Positions 560 to 33,224 of a DNA stretch of 36,047 nt are shown here, piece by piece (the stretch's first letter is position 1; each line of letters begins with the position of its first letter). This DNA comes from a virus. The position numbers and the translations under genes were made by a program. Below the pieces are notes generated by a model, which was not told where the DNA came from, did not search any database, and saw nothing but the letters and a program-made list of their open reading frames with translations. The stretch covers positions 1 through 36,047 of IMG/VR virus record IMGVR_UViG_3300033233_000101. The stretch is one strand, 5' to 3'.

Positions 560-1285
560 TTATAAAGAATTTGGCAAAGGATATTCTCTAATCATTAAAT
601 CCTTTGGTATCTCTTGCACCTTATCAATCTGCTTCATAAAAAATGGAATTTTAAGTTCCTTGCATTGATCCCTTAATTTCCTTGCCCAATCTGGGTTAAA
701 TGGTCTCTTTTTTCTACCTGACTCACCACCAACAACTACCCATTCGATAGTATTTCTGCCTCTAACTATATCAATGAAAACCTGTGCTGTATCTAAAGAT
801 ATTTCCTCTAATAATGGCTCAAAACTAATCCAGTTATTATAAGAATTGCATTGTAGTAAATAAGGCAATCTTGTATCAAACATTTTTTGATTTTCTGCTG
901 ATATTCCAAACCAAACATTATTTAATTTTATTTCACCGCCCCAATTTGCTTTAATATAAGCGAGCATTCTTTCGGGACGCTTTGTCAATATCTGAAATGT
1001 ATGTTGTTTACATCTTTGAGTGATAGATAAAATATCATCTATAAAATAAAACGGAACATCTTCGTGAAATAAATCACTCATCGAATTTACAAATATCATT
1101 TGTGGCTTCCGCCATTTTATTGGTTGCATCAATCTATCTTCGTGGAGTTGTATATCGGTGAATTTTCTATTGCCCCAAAATCTTTTAGCGATTGTTTCCG
1201 CATAACAGTTCTTACATCCAGCACTTATTTTTGTACATCCTGTAATTGGATTCCACGTTTTTTCTGTCCATTCTATTTTACTCAT
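560..1285 (-). CDS. Phage Gp37/Gp68 family protein (DUF5131)
   Basis: The protein of about 242 residues begins MSKIEWTEKTWNPITGC, the typical start of the Gp37/Gp68 (DUF5131) family, and has a cysteine-rich signature GCTKISAGCKNCYAE near residues 16-30. The family is related to radical-SAM-like three-cysteine proteins and is common in phages; its reaction is not established. An earlier in-frame ATG at 1309 overlaps the terminase stop. I prefer 1285 because family members start there and a GGA sits at suitable spacing. The gene follows large terminase directly, so it is probably co-expressed with packaging genes. The usual cassette partner, TcmP, is not seen in this window. Family assignment is confident; function is unknown. 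Confidence 0.85.
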   Translation of the reverse strand: MSKIEWTEKTWNPITGCTKISAGCKNCYAETIAKRFWGNRKFTDIQLHEDRLMQPIKWRKPQMIFVNSMSDLFHEDVPFYFIDDILSITQRCKQHTFQILTKRPERMLAYIKANWGGEIKLNNVWFGISAENQKMFDTRLPYLLQCNSYNNWISFEPLLEEISLDTAQVFIDIVRGRNTIEWVVVGGESGRKKRPFNPDWARKLRDQCKELKIPFFMKQIDKVQEIPKDLMIREYPLPNSL

Positions 1286-1299
1286 AAATATTCCAATAA

Positions 1300-3300
1300 T
1301 TATTTCCATCCATCAATAAAATTTGAGCGCATTGGTTTAAGCCGATTTATAATTTTATTTTGTTTAATTACAACCTGTTCATCCTGAGCGGGTTGATTTT
1401 TTAATGCTTCCTTTATTGCAACAAAATCGGGATCTGCAATTTTAAGAGCCACATAGTTACCGCATTTAGCATCCCAGGGTTCATTACGCATTCTTGGATT
1501 TTTCTTTTTCCAAATTATTGTTTTAACATTTGTTCGTTTATTAACTACCGGGAATGGCGGCTCGCAAAATAAACCTTCAAAATATTTATAATCACAAAAT
1601 GCTTTGGTGTAATGGATTGTCTTTGGTCCACCCGGTTTATATTTTAACCTGTTCCAAATAATTTCTTTAACCGTATCTATTCCCACATTTTGCAAAGGAG
1701 TATTTTTTAATTTACCCACTAATGATTGTGATAATAAAATTGGTAATCCATTACCAGCACGATCCTTAATTGCCATTATGCCGAGATGGAATCTTTGCCG
1801 TGTATATTCATAAACCGATTGAGTATTTTTAAGATAACCACCGGAATCTATATTAATGCAATAATTCCGATGCCCATTCTTGCCAATACCGCCAACATAT
1901 ATTTCAACGCCATCATTACGAATCCATTTCATCTCTAATCTTTTATCAAGCTCATTCCAAACATCAGGATGATCGGGATCGCCCCATATCTGCTCATAAT
2001 GAAGAAGCCAATTTTCTTCACCAATTCCCCATCCATCAAATTCTAGTTCAAGTCTATCCGGGTGAGTATCAACAAAGCCGGTTACAAATAAAACCTCATC
2101 AGGAATAGAAGGATTATTTTCTGTAAGATAATCTTCAGACCAGCTCATTACTGTTGCCTCATCAACATCAGGCGTTTCATCAGATTTATATGGCTTGCCC
2201 TCAACAGTGTTGATAAAAACAGGAATACCTTCGGGATCATCTTTTACTTTTATCCATTCTTCAGCTATTTGCGTCCAGGTAGATAAAGTTGAATACATAC
2301 GTGATAATCCAAGAAAGGATCGAATATTGCTATTAACAGGTGTTGCAGTTGGTGTCCAATAAATCTTAGAGCACATTTTTTTCTTTTGATTTTCATATAT
2401 TTCAGCTTTGCAATCAACATTAGCACAAACATATCTTGCAGTTTCGGGATGATGTTTAATTGTTTTGCCAAAAACATCGGTATCTTTATCCCAGATAAGA
2501 CCACCATAAAAGGTATCAGTTCTTGTATCTTTTTTAGGAAAGAATTCTAAAACTTGCAGGAATCCACACACGGGACATTTAACGAATGGTTTCCTTTGAT
2601 CTCCAAGTAAAACCTTACCATAAATACGGGAATTATTATAATCAGTTGGTGATGAGGTATAAATAATTTTGTAACCATATTTTTTATATGATTCAATTCT
2701 TTGTTCAGCGATTAAGCCGGGATCGCCCTCAACACCAACATTACCAGGCATACGGTCCGGCTCATCAACGTAAAGGATTTTAATTGAAAAGCTCGATAAA
2801 TCAACTGGCGAATTACTACCCGCAAGGATTAAGAAGCCGCCGGGAAATTCCTTAAAGCGCATTGTATTAGTTGATATTCTTGATTTACGCGGTGCTATTT
2901 TATCTTTAATAGTTTCTATTTGATTAAGTACCGGCTCAAGTTTTAGCCGTGAATATTTTTCTGCAAAATCAATTGTTGGTAATAATATCATCATTGGCGA
3001 TGGATCATAATCTATGTAATATGTAATAATAATCATTCCCATTGTAGTCTTTAAGATTTGGGATGATGTCATTATATATATTTCAGATATGTTTGGATCA
3101 ACAATGGAGTTTAAAATTTCACGAGTATATTCAACATCAGAAGTTACCCAGGGACTGCCACCTTTTGCAGATTTATCCGGGATTTTAAAATAGGCGTCAG
3201 CCCAATCAGCCGGTAACATTTGAATGCGGGGCTTTAAAATTGCCCGCACTCTCAAAACAGCATCAAGAATATTATCACTCAAAACTAACTGACTCTGCAT
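1300..3300 (-). CDS. terL: Terminase large subunit, GpA type
   Basis: This 666-residue packaging motor and nuclease matches the lambda gpA-like family. It cuts concatemeric DNA and pumps it into proheads through the portal. Visible features in order: the family entry motif MLPADWADAYFKIP at about 28-41; a Walker A-like stretch TSSQILKTT at about 78-86; Walker B ILYVDEPDR at about 175-183; the SSP coupling motif in YTSSPTD at about 214-220; and a zinc-ribbon insert with CPVC and a later cysteine pair. The C-terminal part has the acidic GFVDTHPD and INIDSGG segments expected of the nuclease domain. Length is normal. It overlaps the small terminase gene by 26 bases, which indicates coupled translation. 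GpA-type enzymes usually go with cohesive-end packaging. Confidence 0.95.
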   Translation of the reverse strand: MQSQLVLSDNILDAVLRVRAILKPRIQMLPADWADAYFKIPDKSAKGGSPWVTSDVEYTREILNSIVDPNISEIYIMTSSQILKTTMGMIIITYYIDYDPSPMMILLPTIDFAEKYSRLKLEPVLNQIETIKDKIAPRKSRISTNTMRFKEFPGGFLILAGSNSPVDLSSFSIKILYVDEPDRMPGNVGVEGDPGLIAEQRIESYKKYGYKIIYTSSPTDYNNSRIYGKVLLGDQRKPFVKCPVCGFLQVLEFFPKKDTRTDTFYGGLIWDKDTDVFGKTIKHHPETARYVCANVDCKAEIYENQKKKMCSKIYWTPTATPVNSNIRSFLGLSRMYSTLSTWTQIAEEWIKVKDDPEGIPVFINTVEGKPYKSDETPDVDEATVMSWSEDYLTENNPSIPDEVLFVTGFVDTHPDRLELEFDGWGIGEENWLLHYEQIWGDPDHPDVWNELDKRLEMKWIRNDGVEIYVGGIGKNGHRNYCINIDSGGYLKNTQSVYEYTRQRFHLGIMAIKDRAGNGLPILLSQSLVGKLKNTPLQNVGIDTVKEIIWNRLKYKPGGPKTIHYTKAFCDYKYFEGLFCEPPFPVVNKRTNVKTIIWKKKNPRMRNEPWDAKCGNYVALKIADPDFVAIKEALKNQPAQDEQVVIKQNKIINRLKPMRSNFIDGWK

Positions 3301-4173: not shown

Positions 4174-5616
4174 CTATATAACATTATTATCTTCAATATT
4201 CCCTTTTTCATCAAATAGTTCTATATTACTATTTAAAGCCTCTTTTACACACCAAAGCTGGACTGGCTTGCCATTTCTTCTAACAGCTCTTTTCTTAAAC
4301 CCTAATGCGCTTAGCGCTTTACCAACATTTATAATAACACTGTTGTTATTGTTTACATTGTTATCTTTACTAAACTTTGATGCTATCTCAGTAGCATCCA
4401 GGTATTTTACAAGACTATGCCGCTCACGTATTTCATCTTCTGTAGGAACGGTATAAAGTCTATCAACAATCTCATATTCAAATGTACGCGCCTGAAACTT
4501 TTCATTTACTGCTTCAATCTTTTTAATATCTTCATTATCAAACCAATATTTTAAGCCATCTTTGTAATGTTGTAAACCTTGTGCATACATTTTACTCAAA
4601 TCAAAATTTTCATTAAGCTGAATATTTTCAATTTCAATTACTAACCAACGCCGGGATCCTGTTTCATCCCGCAGAAACGCCTTATTGTTTTGTGTTGCCG
4701 CAAATGATGCCCGCCTTTTTAAGTGCACATCTGCTTTTGCGTAAGGCAATCTTACAATAATCTGATCTCTTGATATAGCACTCTTTAATGATTCAATATC
4801 TGTTTTATTCAGAGCAGCCATTTCATCAAAGTTAATCAGCATCATATATGCTAAAAATTTCTCGTGATCTTTATTATGCACCTGGAAACTGCTGCCATAA
4901 AAATATTTTAATTGCAAATGTTGAGGTATAATACTCTTAAGAAAAGTAGTTTTGTATTTACCTTGCCCACCAACCAACACTAAACACGTTTGATTTATAT
5001 TATACATATTTGGTTCATCTTTAATTAAACCAACTACCATTGCAGTAAACCACTTACGAAAGCCCTCTACAAAATATTCACGGTTGTTTTCTTCATCCAC
5101 TAACTGCACCTGGCTACAAAAATCAAAGATATGGTCTCTTCCGCTTTTCACACCTTTAAACTTTTTATTTCCATCTTTCCCATCATATATAAACTCACTA
5201 TCACATTTACCAGCAGAATTAAAATAATCCATAAAGGGATTGAACTCTTTACTAATTTCCCGGCTAAAAATAATCGTCTTAAAATCCTCATCACTAATTG
5301 GAATATTATTCATTTTTAATTCTAATTTTATATCCCGATAATCACGATCATCAAAATAAGTCCATCTATTACTATCTTTAGGTTTATATTCAGTATCAGT
5401 ATTAATTACATTGTATCTGAAATCATATCGTTCATTGATGAAATTAACAATCTTCTCAATCTTAAATTTGATGTTCTTTGTTGGCTCAACATCAATACCA
5501 TATTCCTGCTTAATAGCTTCAACACCGATAGCAATCTTATCTTTTGTTGATAATTTCTTTTGCTTCTCTTCAGGAATCTTATCCAACATTTCTTTAAGTT
5601 TATTCGATTTTGCCAT
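4174..5616 (-). CDS. VapE/VirE-family P-loop replication helicase
   Basis: The 480-residue protein has the C-terminal P-loop core of the virulence-associated E family, which serves as replicative helicase partner of phage primases. Visible: Walker A-like VGGQGKYKTTF at about 215-225, where the usual second Gly before the Lys is Tyr; Walker B MLINFDEM at about 259-266; a sensor region with SAISRDQIIVRLPYAKAD; and the family arginine segment DETGSRRWLVIE at about 317-328. The N-terminal 190 residues are family-specific. The start codon overlaps the stop of the preceding ATPase gene as TAATG, so translation is coupled. It is the last gene of the early operon before the repeat array. Confidence 0.88.
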   Translation of the reverse strand: MAKSNKLKEMLDKIPEEKQKKLSTKDKIAIGVEAIKQEYGIDVEPTKNIKFKIEKIVNFINERYDFRYNVINTDTEYKPKDSNRWTYFDDRDYRDIKLELKMNNIPISDEDFKTIIFSREISKEFNPFMDYFNSAGKCDSEFIYDGKDGNKKFKGVKSGRDHIFDFCSQVQLVDEENNREYFVEGFRKWFTAMVVGLIKDEPNMYNINQTCLVLVGGQGKYKTTFLKSIIPQHLQLKYFYGSSFQVHNKDHEKFLAYMMLINFDEMAALNKTDIESLKSAISRDQIIVRLPYAKADVHLKRRASFAATQNNKAFLRDETGSRRWLVIEIENIQLNENFDLSKMYAQGLQHYKDGLKYWFDNEDIKKIEAVNEKFQARTFEYEIVDRLYTVPTEDEIRERHSLVKYLDATEIASKFSKDNNVNNNNSVIINVGKALSALGFKKRAVRRNGKPVQLWCVKEALNSNIELFDEKGNIEDNNVI

Positions 5617-5984
5617 TAGAGATTACATTCAATAAAATCAATCATATCCCAATCTTTAAACTTTTTTGCATTTACATTTCGACAGATAATAATCATTTCA
5701 GGAACTTTTATTGTGATACGCTTTATCGAATAGGGTTTTCTTATCTCTATTGAGCTGAGAGAAGCAAAAAACTTTATTAAATCTTCATTATCTTTCTTAG
5801 TATTACAAATAAGCTCATCAATAATTATAACCTCCGTTGTTTCATCAATGTTGTCAAAAAATCTATTAAGTGTATTTTTATTTACATTGTATTTAACAAT
5901 CCATTTTTTACCTAAGGCAAGCCTTCTTGCTAATGTTGATTTACCACTACCTTGCTCACCTGTTATAACTGTAATCTTTGGCAT
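5616..5984 (-). CDS. Small P-loop ATPase
   Basis: This 122-residue protein has a clean Walker A, TGEQGSGKSTL at about 8-18, and Walker B, EVIIIDEL at about 51-58. It is too short for a helicase and resembles a minimal AAA-like or kinase-like NTPase domain. Its place between primase and VapE-type helicase, with coupled translation into the latter, suggests a role in replication, perhaps as a loader or accessory ATPase; that is inference. The start at 5984 has a good AAGGAG site. Confidence 0.75.
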   Translation of the reverse strand: MPKITVITGEQGSGKSTLARRLALGKKWIVKYNVNKNTLNRFFDNIDETTEVIIIDELICNTKKDNEDLIKFFASLSSIEIRKPYSIKRITIKVPEMIIICRNVNAKKFKDWDMIDFIECNL

Positions 5985-6009
5985 TCTATTTTCTCCTTAA
6001 ATTATTTGA

Positions 6010-6240
6010 TTATTCCCACGAACCAAAATCCATTGCTTTAGGATCAGGTTTCATTTTACCATATAATATAATTTCCACCTTTTTGCCATCAATATATTTT
6101 TGAAACTGTTCCCAGCTTTCATAAAAAACTGACTGACAAAAAGCCCGCCTCCTTAACATTTCTTTTTCTTCATCATCTAAGCACGTTAAATCTCTAATAT
6201 AAAATTCAGCTCTAATATTTAATCTATCATTTGAAGTCAT
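6010..6240 (-). CDS. Small protein between primase and P-loop ATPase
   Basis: This 76-residue, mixed-charge protein (MTSNDRLNIRAEFYIRDLTC) has no motif I recognise. Its start overlaps the primase stop by four bases (ATGA), so it is translationally coupled to the primase. The middle is helical and rich in Glu and Arg; the C-terminus is acidic. A replication accessory role is suggested only by the operon. Confidence 0.6.
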   Translation of the reverse strand: MTSNDRLNIRAEFYIRDLTCLDDEEKEMLRRRAFCQSVFYESWEQFQKYIDGKKVEIILYGKMKPDPKAMDFGSWE

Positions 6241-7397
6241 CTTGCTTCATCCACCAATATTTTTTCAGCAAAATCCGTTACATCTTTTGCGGGAAGTTTT
6301 TTTATCAATAATCCCTTGCCCATTTTTTCGAATATCTTTGTCAATTCAGCTTGCAATTTGCTGCCCGCCTCATCATTATCAGGGATAAAAACTACCTCGG
6401 CGTTTTTTAATTTCTCAAACTTTTCAATTTTAGGAATATTACCAACGCCCGGAATCGCAATCGCCTTAAAGCCAGCATCCTCAATTAACATCGCATCAAA
6501 TTCCCCTTCGGTTATATAAATCCGTTCACCTGGCAACAAATCCATTGCATCGCTATTATAAAATCTTTTTGGAGTGTTAACTCCCAGTGCATCATTTTTT
6601 AATCCTAAATATTTGTTTGATGATGTTTCCGTATTGCCATCAGCATCAAAATATCTACCACGTAAATAAACTATTTTTTTGTTATGCAAATAAGGAATTA
6701 TAATCCTATGATTATAAAATATTAAATTGCCGCTGCCATCTTCTTTAAGATTAAATAAACCAGCACGCCTTAAATCATCCACTGCCCAGCGCTTTTTAAG
6801 ATGATTATTAACCTCATAATAATTAAGTATAAAAAACAGTTTAAAGAATATAATGCTTTTAGGACTAAGCATCCGTTTCTTTGTAAGATATTCCCACGCC
6901 TGCCGTGTCCAGCCGCGCTCGGTACAGTATAAATATAAATCATCAAATATTTCTGCATTCCGTTCTATGCGATATTTTTTAACTTCAGATAAAGCCCTGC
7001 TCTCATCAGAGATGCCGGCTCTTTCTTCATAAAGTATGCGCTCATCATTACTCATACAATCAAACACATTTTCCGTATTGGTCCTAATCGTTTTAATAGG
7101 CGCTTCACGTTTAATCTCCGATGTTTGACCGTAAGTTAAACCATATAAATTACCAAGTTCTCGCACGGCAGTATTGTAATCCACATTATAAACGCCCATA
7201 TAAAAATCAATAACGCTGCCGTGCTCACCGGAGGAATAATCATAAAAGCTATTTGTTAATGGATATAATTTTAAACTGGGAGTTTTTTCCTGCTTATAAA
7301 TGCTAAAACAAAATCCATTGCGCTGCATAGGATAGCCCAGCTTATTTGCCAAATCCTCAATCCTTATAACTTCTTTTATTTTATTGGATAAAGTCAT
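6237..7397 (-). CDS. DNA primase with TOPRIM domain and degenerate CHC2 finger
   Basis: This 386-residue protein is laid out as a phage primase. The N-terminal region (about 20-90) aligns by pattern with the CHC2 zinc finger domain (QEKTPSL followed by GEHGSVIDF), but the expected CxxC knuckle is replaced by YSSG and only one nearby Cys is left, so zinc may not be bound. The TOPRIM domain is intact: ITEGEFDAM with the catalytic Glu at about 297, and the metal-binding PDNDEAG at about 339-345. It would make primers for the VapE-type helicase encoded downstream. The linker (about 100-220) is helical. The call is firm from the TOPRIM motifs and context. Confidence 0.9.
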   Translation of the reverse strand: MTLSNKIKEVIRIEDLANKLGYPMQRNGFCFSIYKQEKTPSLKLYPLTNSFYDYSSGEHGSVIDFYMGVYNVDYNTAVRELGNLYGLTYGQTSEIKREAPIKTIRTNTENVFDCMSNDERILYEERAGISDESRALSEVKKYRIERNAEIFDDLYLYCTERGWTRQAWEYLTKKRMLSPKSIIFFKLFFILNYYEVNNHLKKRWAVDDLRRAGLFNLKEDGSGNLIFYNHRIIIPYLHNKKIVYLRGRYFDADGNTETSSNKYLGLKNDALGVNTPKRFYNSDAMDLLPGERIYITEGEFDAMLIEDAGFKAIAIPGVGNIPKIEKFEKLKNAEVVFIPDNDEAGSKLQAELTKIFEKMGKGLLIKKLPAKDVTDFAEKILVDEAR

Positions 7398-7412
7398 TTA
7401 TTTGATCTTTCT

Positions 7413-7640
7413 TCAATATCCAATTTTATATCTTTCAAATTTTGGCATAATAGTTGGCTCCGTTGATATTGTTGTAATGTATGGTAATTCATCAATTACA
7501 ACGCTGCATTTCCTTTGTCTTTCTCTATTCCTGCGCACCGTTTCGGTATTCTGGATTCTAAAACAATCCTGACAAACATTTCTATGCGGCATCGTTTTAG
7601 CTCCGCAAGCGCAGAATTCTTTTTTCTGATAGCGTACCAT
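7413..7640 (-). CDS. Small zinc-ribbon protein
   Basis: The frame is open from 7784, but the real start is probably the internal ATG at 7640, because the upstream part overlaps the exported-protein gene in another frame. That gives 75 residues: MVRYQKKEFCACGAKTMPHR, then CQDC, then an Arg-rich stretch. CAC and CQDC make a four-cysteine zinc ribbon, and the basic segment after it fits nucleic acid binding. The start lies one base after the TGA of the neighbouring gene (TGATATG). The short protein between exported protein and primase probably acts in early regulation or replication; this is not shown. Confidence 0.65.
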   Translation of the reverse strand: MVRYQKKEFCACGAKTMPHRNVCQDCFRIQNTETVRRNRERQRKCSVVIDELPYITTISTEPTIMPKFERYKIGY

Positions 7641-20830: not shown

Positions 20831-21214
20831 TTACTTTTTCCTTAACCCAACTCCACCAGGTGTTGAAGGTATTGTTCCAACATTACCAACTGCGACACCC
20901 ATTCCTGAATAATACCCTACAGAATTTTCTGCTACTATTCCAACAGTATATTCAAAACCGTCATTACTTAAATTGATTGTGAAAACAGGCGTTGTTGCTT
21001 CGCCAACTTTTAATGTTGTAACATCCGGGCTTAAATAATCCATTCCCTGTATAAGCTTATATGCAGAAGCACTTTTCTTTTCCAGAAAGAAATGATATTT
21101 TACAGCACCGGTTACGGGATTAGAATAAATTTCATAATTACTTTTAGGCTGTCCGTTGCATTTTACAACGAACAATAAAAGTATAATTGATACGAGCAAT
21201 AGGATTCTTTTCAT
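20831..21214 (-). CDS. Exported FN3-like protein
   Basis: 127 residues. MKRILLLVSIILLLFVVK and CNG precede a Gln (CNG|QPKS). The Cys is not in a standard lipobox (Lys at -1), so a Sec I site is more likely than a lipoprotein site, but both are possible. The mature part (YEIYSNPVTGAVKYHFFLEK, GFEYTVGIVAENSVGYYSG) looks like one fibronectin type III fold and ends Gly/Pro-rich. It is coupled to both neighbours (TAATG at 21214). Confidence 0.6.
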   Translation of the reverse strand: MKRILLLVSIILLLFVVKCNGQPKSNYEIYSNPVTGAVKYHFFLEKKSASAYKLIQGMDYLSPDVTTLKVGEATTPVFTINLSNDGFEYTVGIVAENSVGYYSGMGVAVGNVGTIPSTPGGVGLRKK

Positions 21215-29453: not shown

Positions 29454-29579
29454 GGCTGTCTCATAAGTCAAAAATACTGATTTGTCATTCCCACGAAAGT
29501 GGGAATCCATTCTGTTTTATAGATTTTGGATTCCCGTTTTCACGGGAATGACACATAAACAATAGCTTCTGAGACAGCC
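29454..29579. mobile_element. 126-bp MITE-like palindromic element
   Basis: The ends GGCTGTCTCA (29454-29463) and TGAGACAGCC (29570-29579) are perfect inverted repeats, extended by AAG/CTT at slightly relaxed match. Inside lie two perfect stems, ATTCCCAC-GAAA-GTGGGAAT at 29487-29506 and ATTCCCGT-TTTC-ACGGGAAT at 29530-29549, so the whole sequence folds on itself. There is no coding capacity. The TCATTCCC...GGGAATCCA stems resemble short dispersed repeats known in bacterial genomes. No clear target duplication is visible. It lies between the capsid fusion and the coiled-coil gene. Confidence 0.7.
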
Positions 29580-29607: not shown

Positions 29608-31626
29608 TTAGCTTACATCATTAGCACGTGTTAATGCAGCAGGCAGTGCAACCTGAACATCGGCATAAACGAAAATAACGATTGTAATATTACCTGTATT
29701 ATCCTTGTAAGGATTGACAAGAATATCATACATTGACCAATCGAGCATCCAAACTTTTGAAAAGTCTCCAAATATCATTGTGCTTGCAGGAACCTGATTA
29801 GAGATTACTACAGGATAACCGTTTACTTCATTACCTTCCATCAAATAGCCGGGAACACTGGCTGATTTTAATCTGCTCTTCATAATTGCACGAATGGATG
29901 GATTAGTAGCGAATTTTAATGCAGCGTTATCAAGATTTGCAATAGCAATATCAGATTCAAATTCAAGAATAGCACTCCAATCCAAATTAGCACCAACTAC
30001 AGAGCCAAGATTTGATGTATTCAAAATTCCGGTTGGTGCATTTCCACCAGCTCCATTTATAACAGCATAATCATAAGCAAGCTTTGCAACCGCATTAAGA
30101 TCATCAACCACAATTGATTCGATGTTTGGCTCTGACTGCAAGAAAAGTTTTCTTCCATAGGTCATTGATGCCTTACCTTCTTTAGGCGAGGCAGTTACCT
30201 GACCAAGAGTTAAATCAGAATCAACGCTATTAAAGTTTTCAGAACCCCAGGCAAACGAACCAGCAGTTAATTGTATTGGAACATCAAGGTTACCTTTTAA
30301 TCCAGACATTAATCTGCATCCCAATTGACCCGCAACAAGAGTATTGCGCGGTAAGCCAATAAATTCACCAGCCAAATGATCTGTACCAACCAAATATCCA
30401 CCAGCAGAAGGTGTACCAACAGCAAGAGTTCTTTTATTTAATTCCTTCATTCTCATTTTATTAACTATTTCAGCAGGAAGCATTAAACCCTTTGCGGTTA
30501 TGCCTGTTTCATTGTGTGCCTTTGCAATAACAGCATCAACAATTTCTTTTTCCTTGCCAGCTTTGAATTCATCATAAGCACGAACTTTGCCTTGTTTAAA
30601 TGCAGCTTCTGCTTTAAGCAATCTGGCAAGACTGAAGTTTTCGATTTCGTTTTTAGATAAACCCAATTCGGTAGATGGTTTTTCAACTGGTTTATCTTCG
30701 TCATAATTATCGAAAACAAGAGCGCGGAACTGATCAACGGAAGTATTAGAACTAATTGCTTTTTTTAATTCAGCATCAAGGGCTTCTTTGCCACCCTTGT
30801 AGGCGTTTGAAAATCGAGATGCAATTGCTTCAAGACCGGCAATTCTATCTCTTTCGGATTTCCTGATTTCATCAGGAGAAGGAACAATAGGTTCACTCAT
30901 TGTATTACCTCTTTCATTTAGTTTAATGTTTAAATCTTGATTTAAGTCTTTAACTGATTTAATTTCATTTTGTAATTCATCTAATTTTTTTTGCAATTCG
31001 GGATCTTCAGAAATTATTTTGCCGTTATTCTGAAGTTCAGCGCGGAATTTAGCGGCTGCATCTGCACCAATTGGCACGAGTGATAATTCTTTTATCTTCC
31101 ACCAGGTGCGCACAAGTAATGGATAATCATCTTTGAATTGATTTTTATATTCAACGCCGTCTATTGATATAGTAGCATTTTTAGGAACTTCAACTGTTTG
31201 CTGTTTATCGGTTAAATAACCGATAGAAACAGAATCAACGTGTCCCTCTTTAATCTTTTGTCTTATTTCCGGCTCCGCTTCACTTACAAGAATTTTTGCA
31301 AGCAAGTAAGTGTTTTCAGTTTTCCAATCGAAAGCAGAACCTACAACATCCTCAATATCGGAGCGGTTGTGTGCATTAAGCAATGGCGCTTTATTGTTAT
31401 CCGGTAATACGGCATATTTCATTGGTAAGATTTCTCTAACAATGCGCCAGTTTTCCCAATCCATAATTAAAGCTGGATCTTCAGTTGTGGCGATAGTTTC
31501 TATTCCACTGTTAATCTGTTCATCAGTTTTAGCACGATCCAAAACAGCAGATTGGCGTGAACACATACCGCCAAAATGATTAGGATTTAATTCTTTGCCT
31601 TCGAGACCTTTAATTTCTATATTCAT
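29608..31626 (-). CDS. Prohead protease-major capsid protein fusion
   Basis: 672 residues in two parts. The first (about 1-200) is an HK97/herpesvirus-type maturation protease: His in LLNAHNRS (about 86), Ser in VDSVSIGYL (about 134), and KELSLVPIGAD after it. The middle (about 215-240) is a coiled-coil scaffold-like segment. From about 243 on is the HK97-fold capsid protein (AGGYLVGTDHLAGEFI, FLQSEPNIESIVVDDL, INGAGGNAPTGIL). An internal start at 30900 with a strong ribosome site may make the capsid part alone. The portal gene overlaps the start (ATGA). Confidence 0.93.
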   Translation of the reverse strand: MNIEIKGLEGKELNPNHFGGMCSRQSAVLDRAKTDEQINSGIETIATTEDPALIMDWENWRIVREILPMKYAVLPDNNKAPLLNAHNRSDIEDVVGSAFDWKTENTYLLAKILVSEAEPEIRQKIKEGHVDSVSIGYLTDKQQTVEVPKNATISIDGVEYKNQFKDDYPLLVRTWWKIKELSLVPIGADAAAKFRAELQNNGKIISEDPELQKKLDELQNEIKSVKDLNQDLNIKLNERGNTMSEPIVPSPDEIRKSERDRIAGLEAIASRFSNAYKGGKEALDAELKKAISSNTSVDQFRALVFDNYDEDKPVEKPSTELGLSKNEIENFSLARLLKAEAAFKQGKVRAYDEFKAGKEKEIVDAVIAKAHNETGITAKGLMLPAEIVNKMRMKELNKRTLAVGTPSAGGYLVGTDHLAGEFIGLPRNTLVAGQLGCRLMSGLKGNLDVPIQLTAGSFAWGSENFNSVDSDLTLGQVTASPKEGKASMTYGRKLFLQSEPNIESIVVDDLNAVAKLAYDYAVINGAGGNAPTGILNTSNLGSVVGANLDWSAILEFESDIAIANLDNAALKFATNPSIRAIMKSRLKSASVPGYLMEGNEVNGYPVVISNQVPASTMIFGDFSKVWMLDWSMYDILVNPYKDNTGNITIVIFVYADVQVALPAALTRANDVS
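30898..30911 (-). promoter_or_regulatory. Internal ribosome site and start in the capsid fusion
   Basis: On the coding strand AAAGAGGT is followed, eight bases on, by ATG (codon 243 of the long frame: MSEPIVPSPDE). The sequence is as good as the best true starts in the window. Translation from here would give a 430-residue capsid protein without protease. Compare lambda C/Nu3, where an internal start makes the scaffold. Confidence 0.65.
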
Positions 31627-33224
31627 TTGAACTCCGTTAATAATTTTGCTTTTCCATTGCCATTGCCGGATGCTGATGTTTGTTCTTTTACAGGTTGCGA
31701 TGGCGCAACATTGTATTTAGTCATCAGCATATTGTATAAATCAGTTAAACCTTTTTTCTCGAATAAAGTTTTTTCAGAAACTATTTGATCCAATTGTTCT
31801 TCCAAATCAATTCCCTGATCAGCGAGAACCTGCTCAAAAGTTTTCTGGAATGATTGAAGTCCGAGTATATTGGATTCCATTTCATCTTTAGGATTAGCAT
31901 ACTGCCAGCGTCTTCCGAACCAATAAGGGCGATTAAATTTATCAAACTTTGCAATAGGCAGATTTAATTGACCGGAAAGGATTGCCATTTCGAGCAAAGA
32001 AACAAAAATTTCATTTACACATTGTTCAGCAAACCAACTTTGGTTATCTTTATGTTCATCACGTTCAGATTGCAATGCAGCACGTGAGACAGAATAATTA
32101 TAGCCCATCCAATCGCCGGTAACAGAAGCATATCCCTGACCAACTCCGGAAGAAATTCCGTGCAGGTTTTTATCAATAAACGGCTCATAAGTAGTTCCTG
32201 GAAAATCAGCTTCCATTGATTTAACCTGATAACCTTTAGGCGCCTGAAAAGTTTGTCCTTCTTCAAGTTCAATTAGCTGATTACCGGAAGTATCTTTACT
32301 TTGACCAACGCCAGCAAGTGTACCGCCATTAAGTACATTTGGTATTTCTTCAAACACCCAGGGAATATTAGCAACCGAACGAACACGAGTAAGTGCGGCT
32401 TCCTCAATTCCATATAACATTTTTAATCTTATTCCAACAGGAGCGAATTGAGTAATGCCGCGTAATTGATGAGCAGTTTCTTTTTTGTAAAGATGAATTA
32501 TATTTTCAGCAGAAATTCTTTCATAATCACCAGACCAATTAACAGTATTTTCAATATCGGATTTTGGATTATTCTTTTTAAACCAGTAAGCAATTTTTTT
32601 CCAGTTTTTGTTTACCTCGATTCCCATTATAATCATATTGCCATTTGGCAAATCTTTTTTAAGACGGAAATCAACCTGATCTGATGTAATTAACTGAGTG
32701 GTAAATCCATATTTATTGTATCCTTTGCCTTTAAGCTTAACAATAAAAACTTCGCCATCGGTAAAAACAGTGTTTAATATAGTTCCGAAATATGATCTTG
32801 TAGTTTCATCACCTTCGATGCTAATACATTTTTCAACACCATAGCGATACCACATTTCATTTATCATACTATTTGCAACGGGATCGAGAACGAATTTCCA
32901 TTCATTACCAAACTGCTGCCATTCGCCTGCTTTATTGCGCAGGGTAAAACCATTTTCGCCAAGGATGCCATTGCGGAAATTGCGCACAATATTTTTTGCA
33001 TAAGGATCATTTTGGAAAAGTTCACGCCCGCGAGCTATCATTGCGGGACCGCCAACAGAGATATCATAATTAAAAGATTTGGCAAAAGAAATCCAGTCAG
33101 CTTTAAGCCGATCAACTTTTGCCATATTATATCCGCGCTGATTAATTGAATTAATAACAGATTGCAGATTGCTTAATTTTTCTTCAAGATTTGCAACGCG
33201 TATTTTATCTTTTCCAAAAATCAT
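31623..33224 (-). CDS. Portal protein, lambda family
   Basis: 533 residues. The N-terminus and the 'RAR-L-RNDPYA-N-VRN' type motif (ARGRELFQNDPYAKNIVRNF) at about 65-85, plus TDGEVFIVKLKGKG, AENIIHLYKKE and the late MGYNYSVSRAALQSERDE, define the lambda gpB-like portal family. It makes the dodecameric ring through which DNA enters. The stop overlaps the start of the protease fusion (ATGA). A weakly acidic, disordered C-terminus (ASGNGNGKAKLLTEFK) ends it. Firm call. Confidence 0.92.
   Translation of the reverse strand: MIFGKDKIRVANLEEKLSNLQSVINSINQRGYNMAKVDRLKADWISFAKSFNYDISVGGPAMIARGRELFQNDPYAKNIVRNFRNGILGENGFTLRNKAGEWQQFGNEWKFVLDPVANSMINEMWYRYGVEKCISIEGDETTRSYFGTILNTVFTDGEVFIVKLKGKGYNKYGFTTQLITSDQVDFRLKKDLPNGNMIIMGIEVNKNWKKIAYWFKKNNPKSDIENTVNWSGDYERISAENIIHLYKKETAHQLRGITQFAPVGIRLKMLYGIEEAALTRVRSVANIPWVFEEIPNVLNGGTLAGVGQSKDTSGNQLIELEEGQTFQAPKGYQVKSMEADFPGTTYEPFIDKNLHGISSGVGQGYASVTGDWMGYNYSVSRAALQSERDEHKDNQSWFAEQCVNEIFVSLLEMAILSGQLNLPIAKFDKFNRPYWFGRRWQYANPKDEMESNILGLQSFQKTFEQVLADQGIDLEEQLDQIVSEKTLFEKKGLTDLYNMLMTKYNVAPSQPVKEQTSASGNGNGKAKLLTEFK

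Follow-up and report, generated by a model that had tools for sequence, protein, structure and literature searches.

The closest described precedent for a nested start in a head-assembly gene comes from phage lambda. Lambda gene C, which according to its annotation begins before the portal gene has ended, contains an in-frame inner start behind the protease, and this start yields a protease-free scaffold product, Nu3, with the same C-terminus. Nu3 is reportedly shorter than annotated, and its size is close to that of the 131-residue product that begins at M309. In a scan of gene C for Shine-Dalgarno (SD) motifs, which served as a positive control (L211; NC_001416, positions 4300-7500), the strongest SD before an in-frame ATG was that of M309 (-9.7), the start of this C-terminal product, while the nu3 annotation within C (NC_001416), which shares the stop codon of C, starts at M239, with a weaker SD (-6.4). 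As a side observation, the nu3 coordinates in NC_001416 look too long.

The tripartite capsid gene of the Salmonella phage Gifsy-2 is a second precedent, as protease, scaffold and capsid are reportedly made from a single gene in this phage. Its protease is of the ClpP type (NF045540) and belongs to a fold family unrelated to that of the protease described below. Two profile collections also contain fusions of the kind treated here, namely NF045541 (scaf_prot_MCP2) and the families phrog_617 and phrog_4523, which share domain order and full-length similarity with our locus; they name one fusion product, and their names and descriptions are without an internal start. In HK97, the major capsid protein gp5 has an N-terminal scaffold (delta) domain followed by the HK97-fold capsid domain (described in passages of PMC10275583), and the protease, gp4, is encoded by a separate gene.

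The locus that we have analyzed lies on a 36,047-base virus record of IMG/VR, which is called the window throughout. It encodes a large terminase subunit of the lambda type, a portal protein of the lambda family and an integrase, and it therefore looks like a temperate tailed phage. Downstream of the portal gene, one long open frame encodes prohead protease, scaffold and major capsid protein, and its ATG overlaps the last 4 bases of the portal gene; an overlap with the portal gene is also annotated for lambda C. A preliminary description had located this frame and its codon 243 correctly and had left out the strand, which is the minus strand. The features are as follows:

31623..33224, minus strand: portal gene of the lambda family (PF05136, E 2e-63), the upstream neighbor of the fused gene
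29608..31626, minus strand: fused prohead protease / scaffold / major capsid gene, an open frame of 672 aa (73.6 kDa)
31060..31626, minus strand: protease domain, aa 1-189 (phrog_3244, 'head maturation protease', E 7e-9)
30901..31059, minus strand: aa 190-242, a linker of hypervariable sequence in which a helix is predicted at aa 209-238 (AlphaFold2 model)
30907..30914, minus strand: internal SD AAAGAGGT, read from the sequence, with a 6-base spacer, AATACA, to the ATG
30898..30900, minus strand: internal start codon ATG, codon 243, read from the sequence
30403..30900, minus strand: delta / scaffold-like helical region, aa 243-408 (helices 251-393 in the AlphaFold2 model)
29611..30402, minus strand: HK97-fold major capsid protein in its predicted mature form, aa 409-672, 28.0 kDa (PF05065 over 409-666)

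The fused protein is matched end to end by phrog_617 (aa 24-671, E 4e-79), and full-length matches to PHROG 617 / 4523, spanning protease and capsid, were also found for 60 of the 60 members of set A2. The NF045541 profile, 'prohead protease/major capsid protein fusion protein', matches the window with an E value of 3e-28 and 98.8 bits, below its curated cut-off of 525 bits, and this cut-off was also missed by all five fused phages searched, VP882 and R4C among them; the window protein is thus a relative of NF045541 and not a formal member. The capsid assignment is firm: the C-terminal part is an HK97-fold major capsid protein, with matches to PF05065 (E 1e-26) and to TIGR01554 (E 5e-27, above cut-off), and an alignment of aa 409-661 with 8gta_A, a PDB chain from phage R4C, which is also the best Foldseek match of the predicted model (E 7e-20).

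At the other end of the protein, the protease part matches phrog_3244 and phrog_80 and has no TIGR01543 match at 0.01; TIGR01543 was matched by five of the six relatives scanned, with every score under its 59-bit cut-off. The NF045540 profile for Gifsy-2-like, ClpP-type fusions gave no match to the window at E 0.01, and the window's protease type also differs from that of lambda, which is annotated as S49 (ClpP-like). Across 95 aligned fused open reading frames, H86 and E180 are conserved in 95 and S134 in 94. These three residues are likely to be catalytic and would fit a serine protease triad; we take them to correspond to the catalytic residues of the HK97-type (S78/U9-like) proteases.

The AlphaFold2 model of the whole fused protein (mean pLDDT 79.7, pTM 0.54) has a beta-rich domain to about residue 185, a long helix at 209-238, disorder at 239-245 (pLDDT below 50), helices at 251-393, disorder at 395-425 and then the capsid fold. 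M243 is thus placed in a disordered gap between the protease and coil on one side and the delta helices on the other. The order of protease, coil and capsid given in the preliminary description is retained, but it was incomplete, because the coil (helix 209-238) precedes M243 and an additional set of delta or scaffold helices lies between M243 and the capsid. A scaffold role for aa 243-408 would agree with the position of this region and with the analogy to HK97.

The reported combination of a strong SD and an in-frame ATG at codon 243 is present in the window, with AAAGAGGT at 30914-30907 and the ATG at 30900-30898. As in lambda C/Nu3, an in-frame start with an SD follows the protease domain and shares the stop codon with the complete gene. 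The calculated pairing with the end of the 16S rRNA is -7.2 kcal/mol at codon 243 compared to -6.1 at the gene's own start. When it is placed among the 37 listed gene starts of the window, the SD of codon 243 ranks 8th of 38 and is stronger than 30 of the 37; within the fused gene, 14 ATGs were counted in frame, and codon 243 has the strongest SD of these as well. Furthermore, the 13 bases AAATGAAAGAGGT are identical to the sequence before another start of the same phage, the ATG at 21214. It should be noted that the 37 window genes contain 142 internal ATGs in frame, of which 3 (2.1%) have an SD that is at least as strong, and that a gene with 14 ATGs is therefore expected to show one about a quarter of the time. 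In addition, a null model with synonymous codons was not significant for the window (p = 0.30). Taken from the window alone, the site at codon 243 is not beyond chance and is only suggestive, and it is its conservation across relatives that raises it above chance.

Scans with the single window protein against viral contigs and genome contigs found no relatives, and profile scans were therefore used. Relatives were taken from phage and plasmid records, from IMG/VR contigs (best 80 of 417) and from species genomes (best 80 of 163), giving 177 loci including the window itself (L001). Protease and capsid are in one frame in 174 of the 177; the exceptions are the locus of Cellulophaga phage phi39:1 (L012), in which they are split, and two loci that gave the capsid part only (L016, L126). 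The set of fused genes thus comprises 174 genes, the window and 173 further loci (without L001), of which 169 have both alignment anchors. The nearest relative of the window among those collected has 32% identity, so that the evidence from conservation comes from distant relatives, and the typical identity between two members of the fused family is about 41%. The stretch that separates D189, the last of the conserved protease residues, from R261, the first such residue of the scaffold, cannot be aligned and is of variable length.

In spite of this variability, an in-frame start codon is present in the linker between protease and scaffold in all 174 fused genes examined, as an ATG in 171 and as a GTG in three. 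Among the 169 anchored genes, 166 have the linker ATG, and it is also found in the five fused genes without both anchors, each time with an SD of -6.0 or stronger. The three genes with GTG at the equivalent place have SD motifs of -8.0 (L029), -8.2 (L143) and -9.3 (L170); the first two are 67% identical and the third is separate, so that GTG is found in at least two lineages. Because GTG would be read internally as valine and the start signal is nevertheless kept, it appears to be the start codon that is conserved and not the methionine. To limit the effect of relatedness, 47 representatives with identities below 50% were selected, and 46 of them have the linker ATG, compared to a mean of 36.2 and a maximum of 43 in 2,000 random placements of the same ATGs. 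The linkers span about 55 residues, and at this length a methionine is weak evidence when taken alone (36 of 47 expected at random), and the case rests jointly on the excess, the SD motifs, the GTG exchanges and the openness of the mRNA.

The SD motifs at these starts are stronger than elsewhere in the same genes. In the 47 representatives, the mean SD energy was -5.17 for linker ATGs. It was -2.71 for the ATGs in frame elsewhere in the genes (p 1.5e-9) and -2.72 for the remaining codons of the linkers (p 4.5e-10). The strongest SD-ATG combination of the gene falls into the linker in 25 of the 47, with 5.1 expected. An SD of -5 or stronger is present in 36 of the 47, while in 500 trials, in which the best out of the same number of randomly drawn linker codons was taken, this value was reached in a mean of 13.8 and a maximum of 23. 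The maximum of the SD signal lies 9-10 bases ahead of the start codon, with -4.1 versus -1.2 in controls, which have no such peak (28 representatives, 398 control ATGs). The genome contigs were analyzed after the rule had been formed on the first, discovery set, and thus represent a replication, in which the SD excess was again found (p 5e-18, n=74) and the strongest SD-ATG was in the linker in 28 of 74 genes, with 6.9 expected. The same was true for the 15 replication representatives with less than 50% identity to every discovery gene (p 1e-4; 7 versus 1.6 expected). The folding of the mRNA around the linker start was also weaker, -4.2 compared to -10.2 kcal/mol at other ATGs and compared to -10.6 elsewhere within these linkers (p 2e-9).

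A synonymous-codon null for each gene gave no signal (mean z -0.43, with p <= 0.05 in 8 of the 95 genes); the residues before the start themselves spell the SD, and selection on codons is therefore inseparable from selection on residues. Little or no SD (above -3) was found in 33 of 169 genes, including the gene of Synechococcus phage S-LBS1 and many marine contigs, and initiation with little use of SD motifs in the respective hosts could explain these cases. The internal methionine is kept without an SD in L004, L021, L024, L025, L027, L028, L042, L052 and similar contigs, many of which have the motif PxMENTPDLEVIR or a similar one; perhaps their hosts rely little on SD motifs. For 14 annotated fused genes, the internal SD could be compared with that of the annotated first start, and it was stronger in ten, equal in one and weaker in three.

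The internal start had been proposed as a source of extra capsid, and the comparative evidence strongly supports internal initiation itself; the predicted product, however, is not bare capsid but scaffold (delta) plus capsid. We regard it as highly probable, on the comparative analysis of these genes, that two starts are used, such that little full-length protein and more scaffold-capsid protein from M243 are made and both are trimmed to about 28 kDa. Initiation at the first ATG, at the overlap with the portal gene, would produce the complete protease-scaffold-capsid protein of 73.6 kDa, and initiation at codon 243 would produce, in the same frame, a scaffold-capsid protein of 430 aa and 46.2 kDa without the protease. 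The two forms would co-assemble via their common scaffold and capsid parts, and the full-length form would thereby supply the prohead with proteases in limited number, which would then cut away themselves and the scaffold and leave the 28-kDa capsid protein. The ratio of the products is the simplest reason for an internal start, and the capsid-containing short form would be expected in excess over the full-length form.

Cleavage is predicted before G409 of the window protein. The deposited capsid chain of R4C comprises residues 362-629 of a 629-aa precursor, and its Gly-Gly start aligns with G409, so that either start would be expected to give the same mature capsid N-terminus. It follows that cleavage would erase the difference between the products, and that N-termini of virion proteins would be uninformative with respect to the internal start. 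R4C heads hold 415 capsid copies, and the passages of the structure paper covered here mention neither a protease nor a cleavage (PMC10276861).

An alternative would be that the internal start is a relic, that is, that protease and capsid were once separate genes, that M243 and its SD are left over from that time, and that all capsid protein is derived from cleavage of the full-length form. The split order of protease and then capsid in phi39:1 would fit to this idea, as its capsid protein has 439 aa, compared to 430 aa from M243, and the deposited R4C structure shows the capsid protein in its cleaved form only. In pairwise comparisons with phi39:1, only the mature capsid part could be aligned, and the delta region remained unaligned, so that the start of the split capsid gene could not be placed relative to M243, and the phi39:1 protease gave no significant match to the window. 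A relic would have decayed, yet the start codon is kept in 174 of 174 genes in spite of the low identity and the unalignable linkers, with GTG exchanges that keep the SD and with an open mRNA; a relic is thus very unlikely.

The methionine or the motif around it might also be kept for a reason that lies in the protein, for example for cleavage, as a hinge or for binding. M243 is indeed located in the flexible stretch that connects protease and scaffold, where self-cleavage would be plausible, and the linker methionine is frequently followed by S, E, D, T or P. However, the residues flanking the linker start cannot be aligned between lineages, valine replaces methionine in three genes with retention of the SD, and an SD peak at -9/-10 together with weak folding of the mRNA are features of the nucleic acid, which makes a protein-level reason very unlikely. 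A chance occurrence of an in-frame SD and ATG in an AT-rich gene would be compatible with the counts from the window (3 of 142 and p = 0.30), but codon 243 is exactly where all 173 fused relatives examined have a start codon, it is the strongest of 14, and its SD string is common to another start of the same phage, so that chance is an extremely unlikely explanation.

A comparable layout was found in fusions with a different protease. NF045540, the NCBIfam model of ClpP-like protease/capsid fusions, was used with 295 genomes of one order and yielded 24 loci (L182-L205) in 22 genomes. An ATG is present right behind the ClpP domain in 21 of the 24 loci and is missing in three, and an SD of -5 or stronger precedes it by about 12-13 bases in 19 of the 24, while two have the ATG and no SD. 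These ClpP-type relatives thus carry an analogous internal start. A further 200 genomes of another order gave a single match (L206), which on inspection belongs to the same type as the window, and the internal site is present there too. As judged from the sequences of these loci, the order of protease, internal start and scaffold-capsid is common to two fusion families with unrelated proteases. Dual initiation is probably a general, unannotated rule of the protease-scaffold-capsid fusions of tailed phages, in which the main product would be the protease-free scaffold-capsid protein and the ratio of the SD strengths would set the number of proteases per prohead.

The fusion itself is already known (PHROG 617/4523, NF045541, NF045540), as is the principle of a nested start (lambda C/Nu3). 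A nested start in the family of protease-capsid fusions, with an inner product that includes the capsid, provisionally appears to be new. In lambda, the capsid protein E has a gene of its own and the inner product is scaffold only, whereas the inner product proposed for the window would include the capsid protein and would resemble HK97 gp5, and in contrast to HK97 the window has protease and capsid in one frame. The annotation of PPpW-3, 'putative major capsid protein and peptidase U35', is an example of how such genes are recorded, and an internal start is marked in none of the 14 annotated fused records (the plasmid tables being incomplete). The open literature covered does not describe an internal start for such fusions; the paper on the tripartite Gifsy-2 gene lies outside this coverage, and the novelty is provisional in this respect.

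If dual initiation is correct, the annotated capsid protein of a large group of phages would be the wrong product in most copies, and it would be explained how protease and capsid can be fused without every capsid subunit bringing a protease into the head. The stoichiometry of head assembly would become a question that is simple to test, and gene callers as well as work on capsid engineering would have to take the inner start into account.

Several other features of the window were observed. A gene for a DUF5131 (PF07505) protein of unknown function (560-1309, minus strand) adjoins the terminase gene, and genes with a VapE-like helicase domain and a CHC2/Toprim primase are present at 4174-5616 and 6237-7397 (minus strand), a replication module that is found in many temperate elements. 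Directly behind the capsid gene there is a palindromic element of 126 bases (29454-29579), in which inverted repeats (GGCTGTCTCATAAG/CTTCTGAGACAGCC) enclose a hairpin and which resembles a miniature insertion element or a terminator brought by one. Its first 17 bases have exact matches in four IMG/VR stretches.
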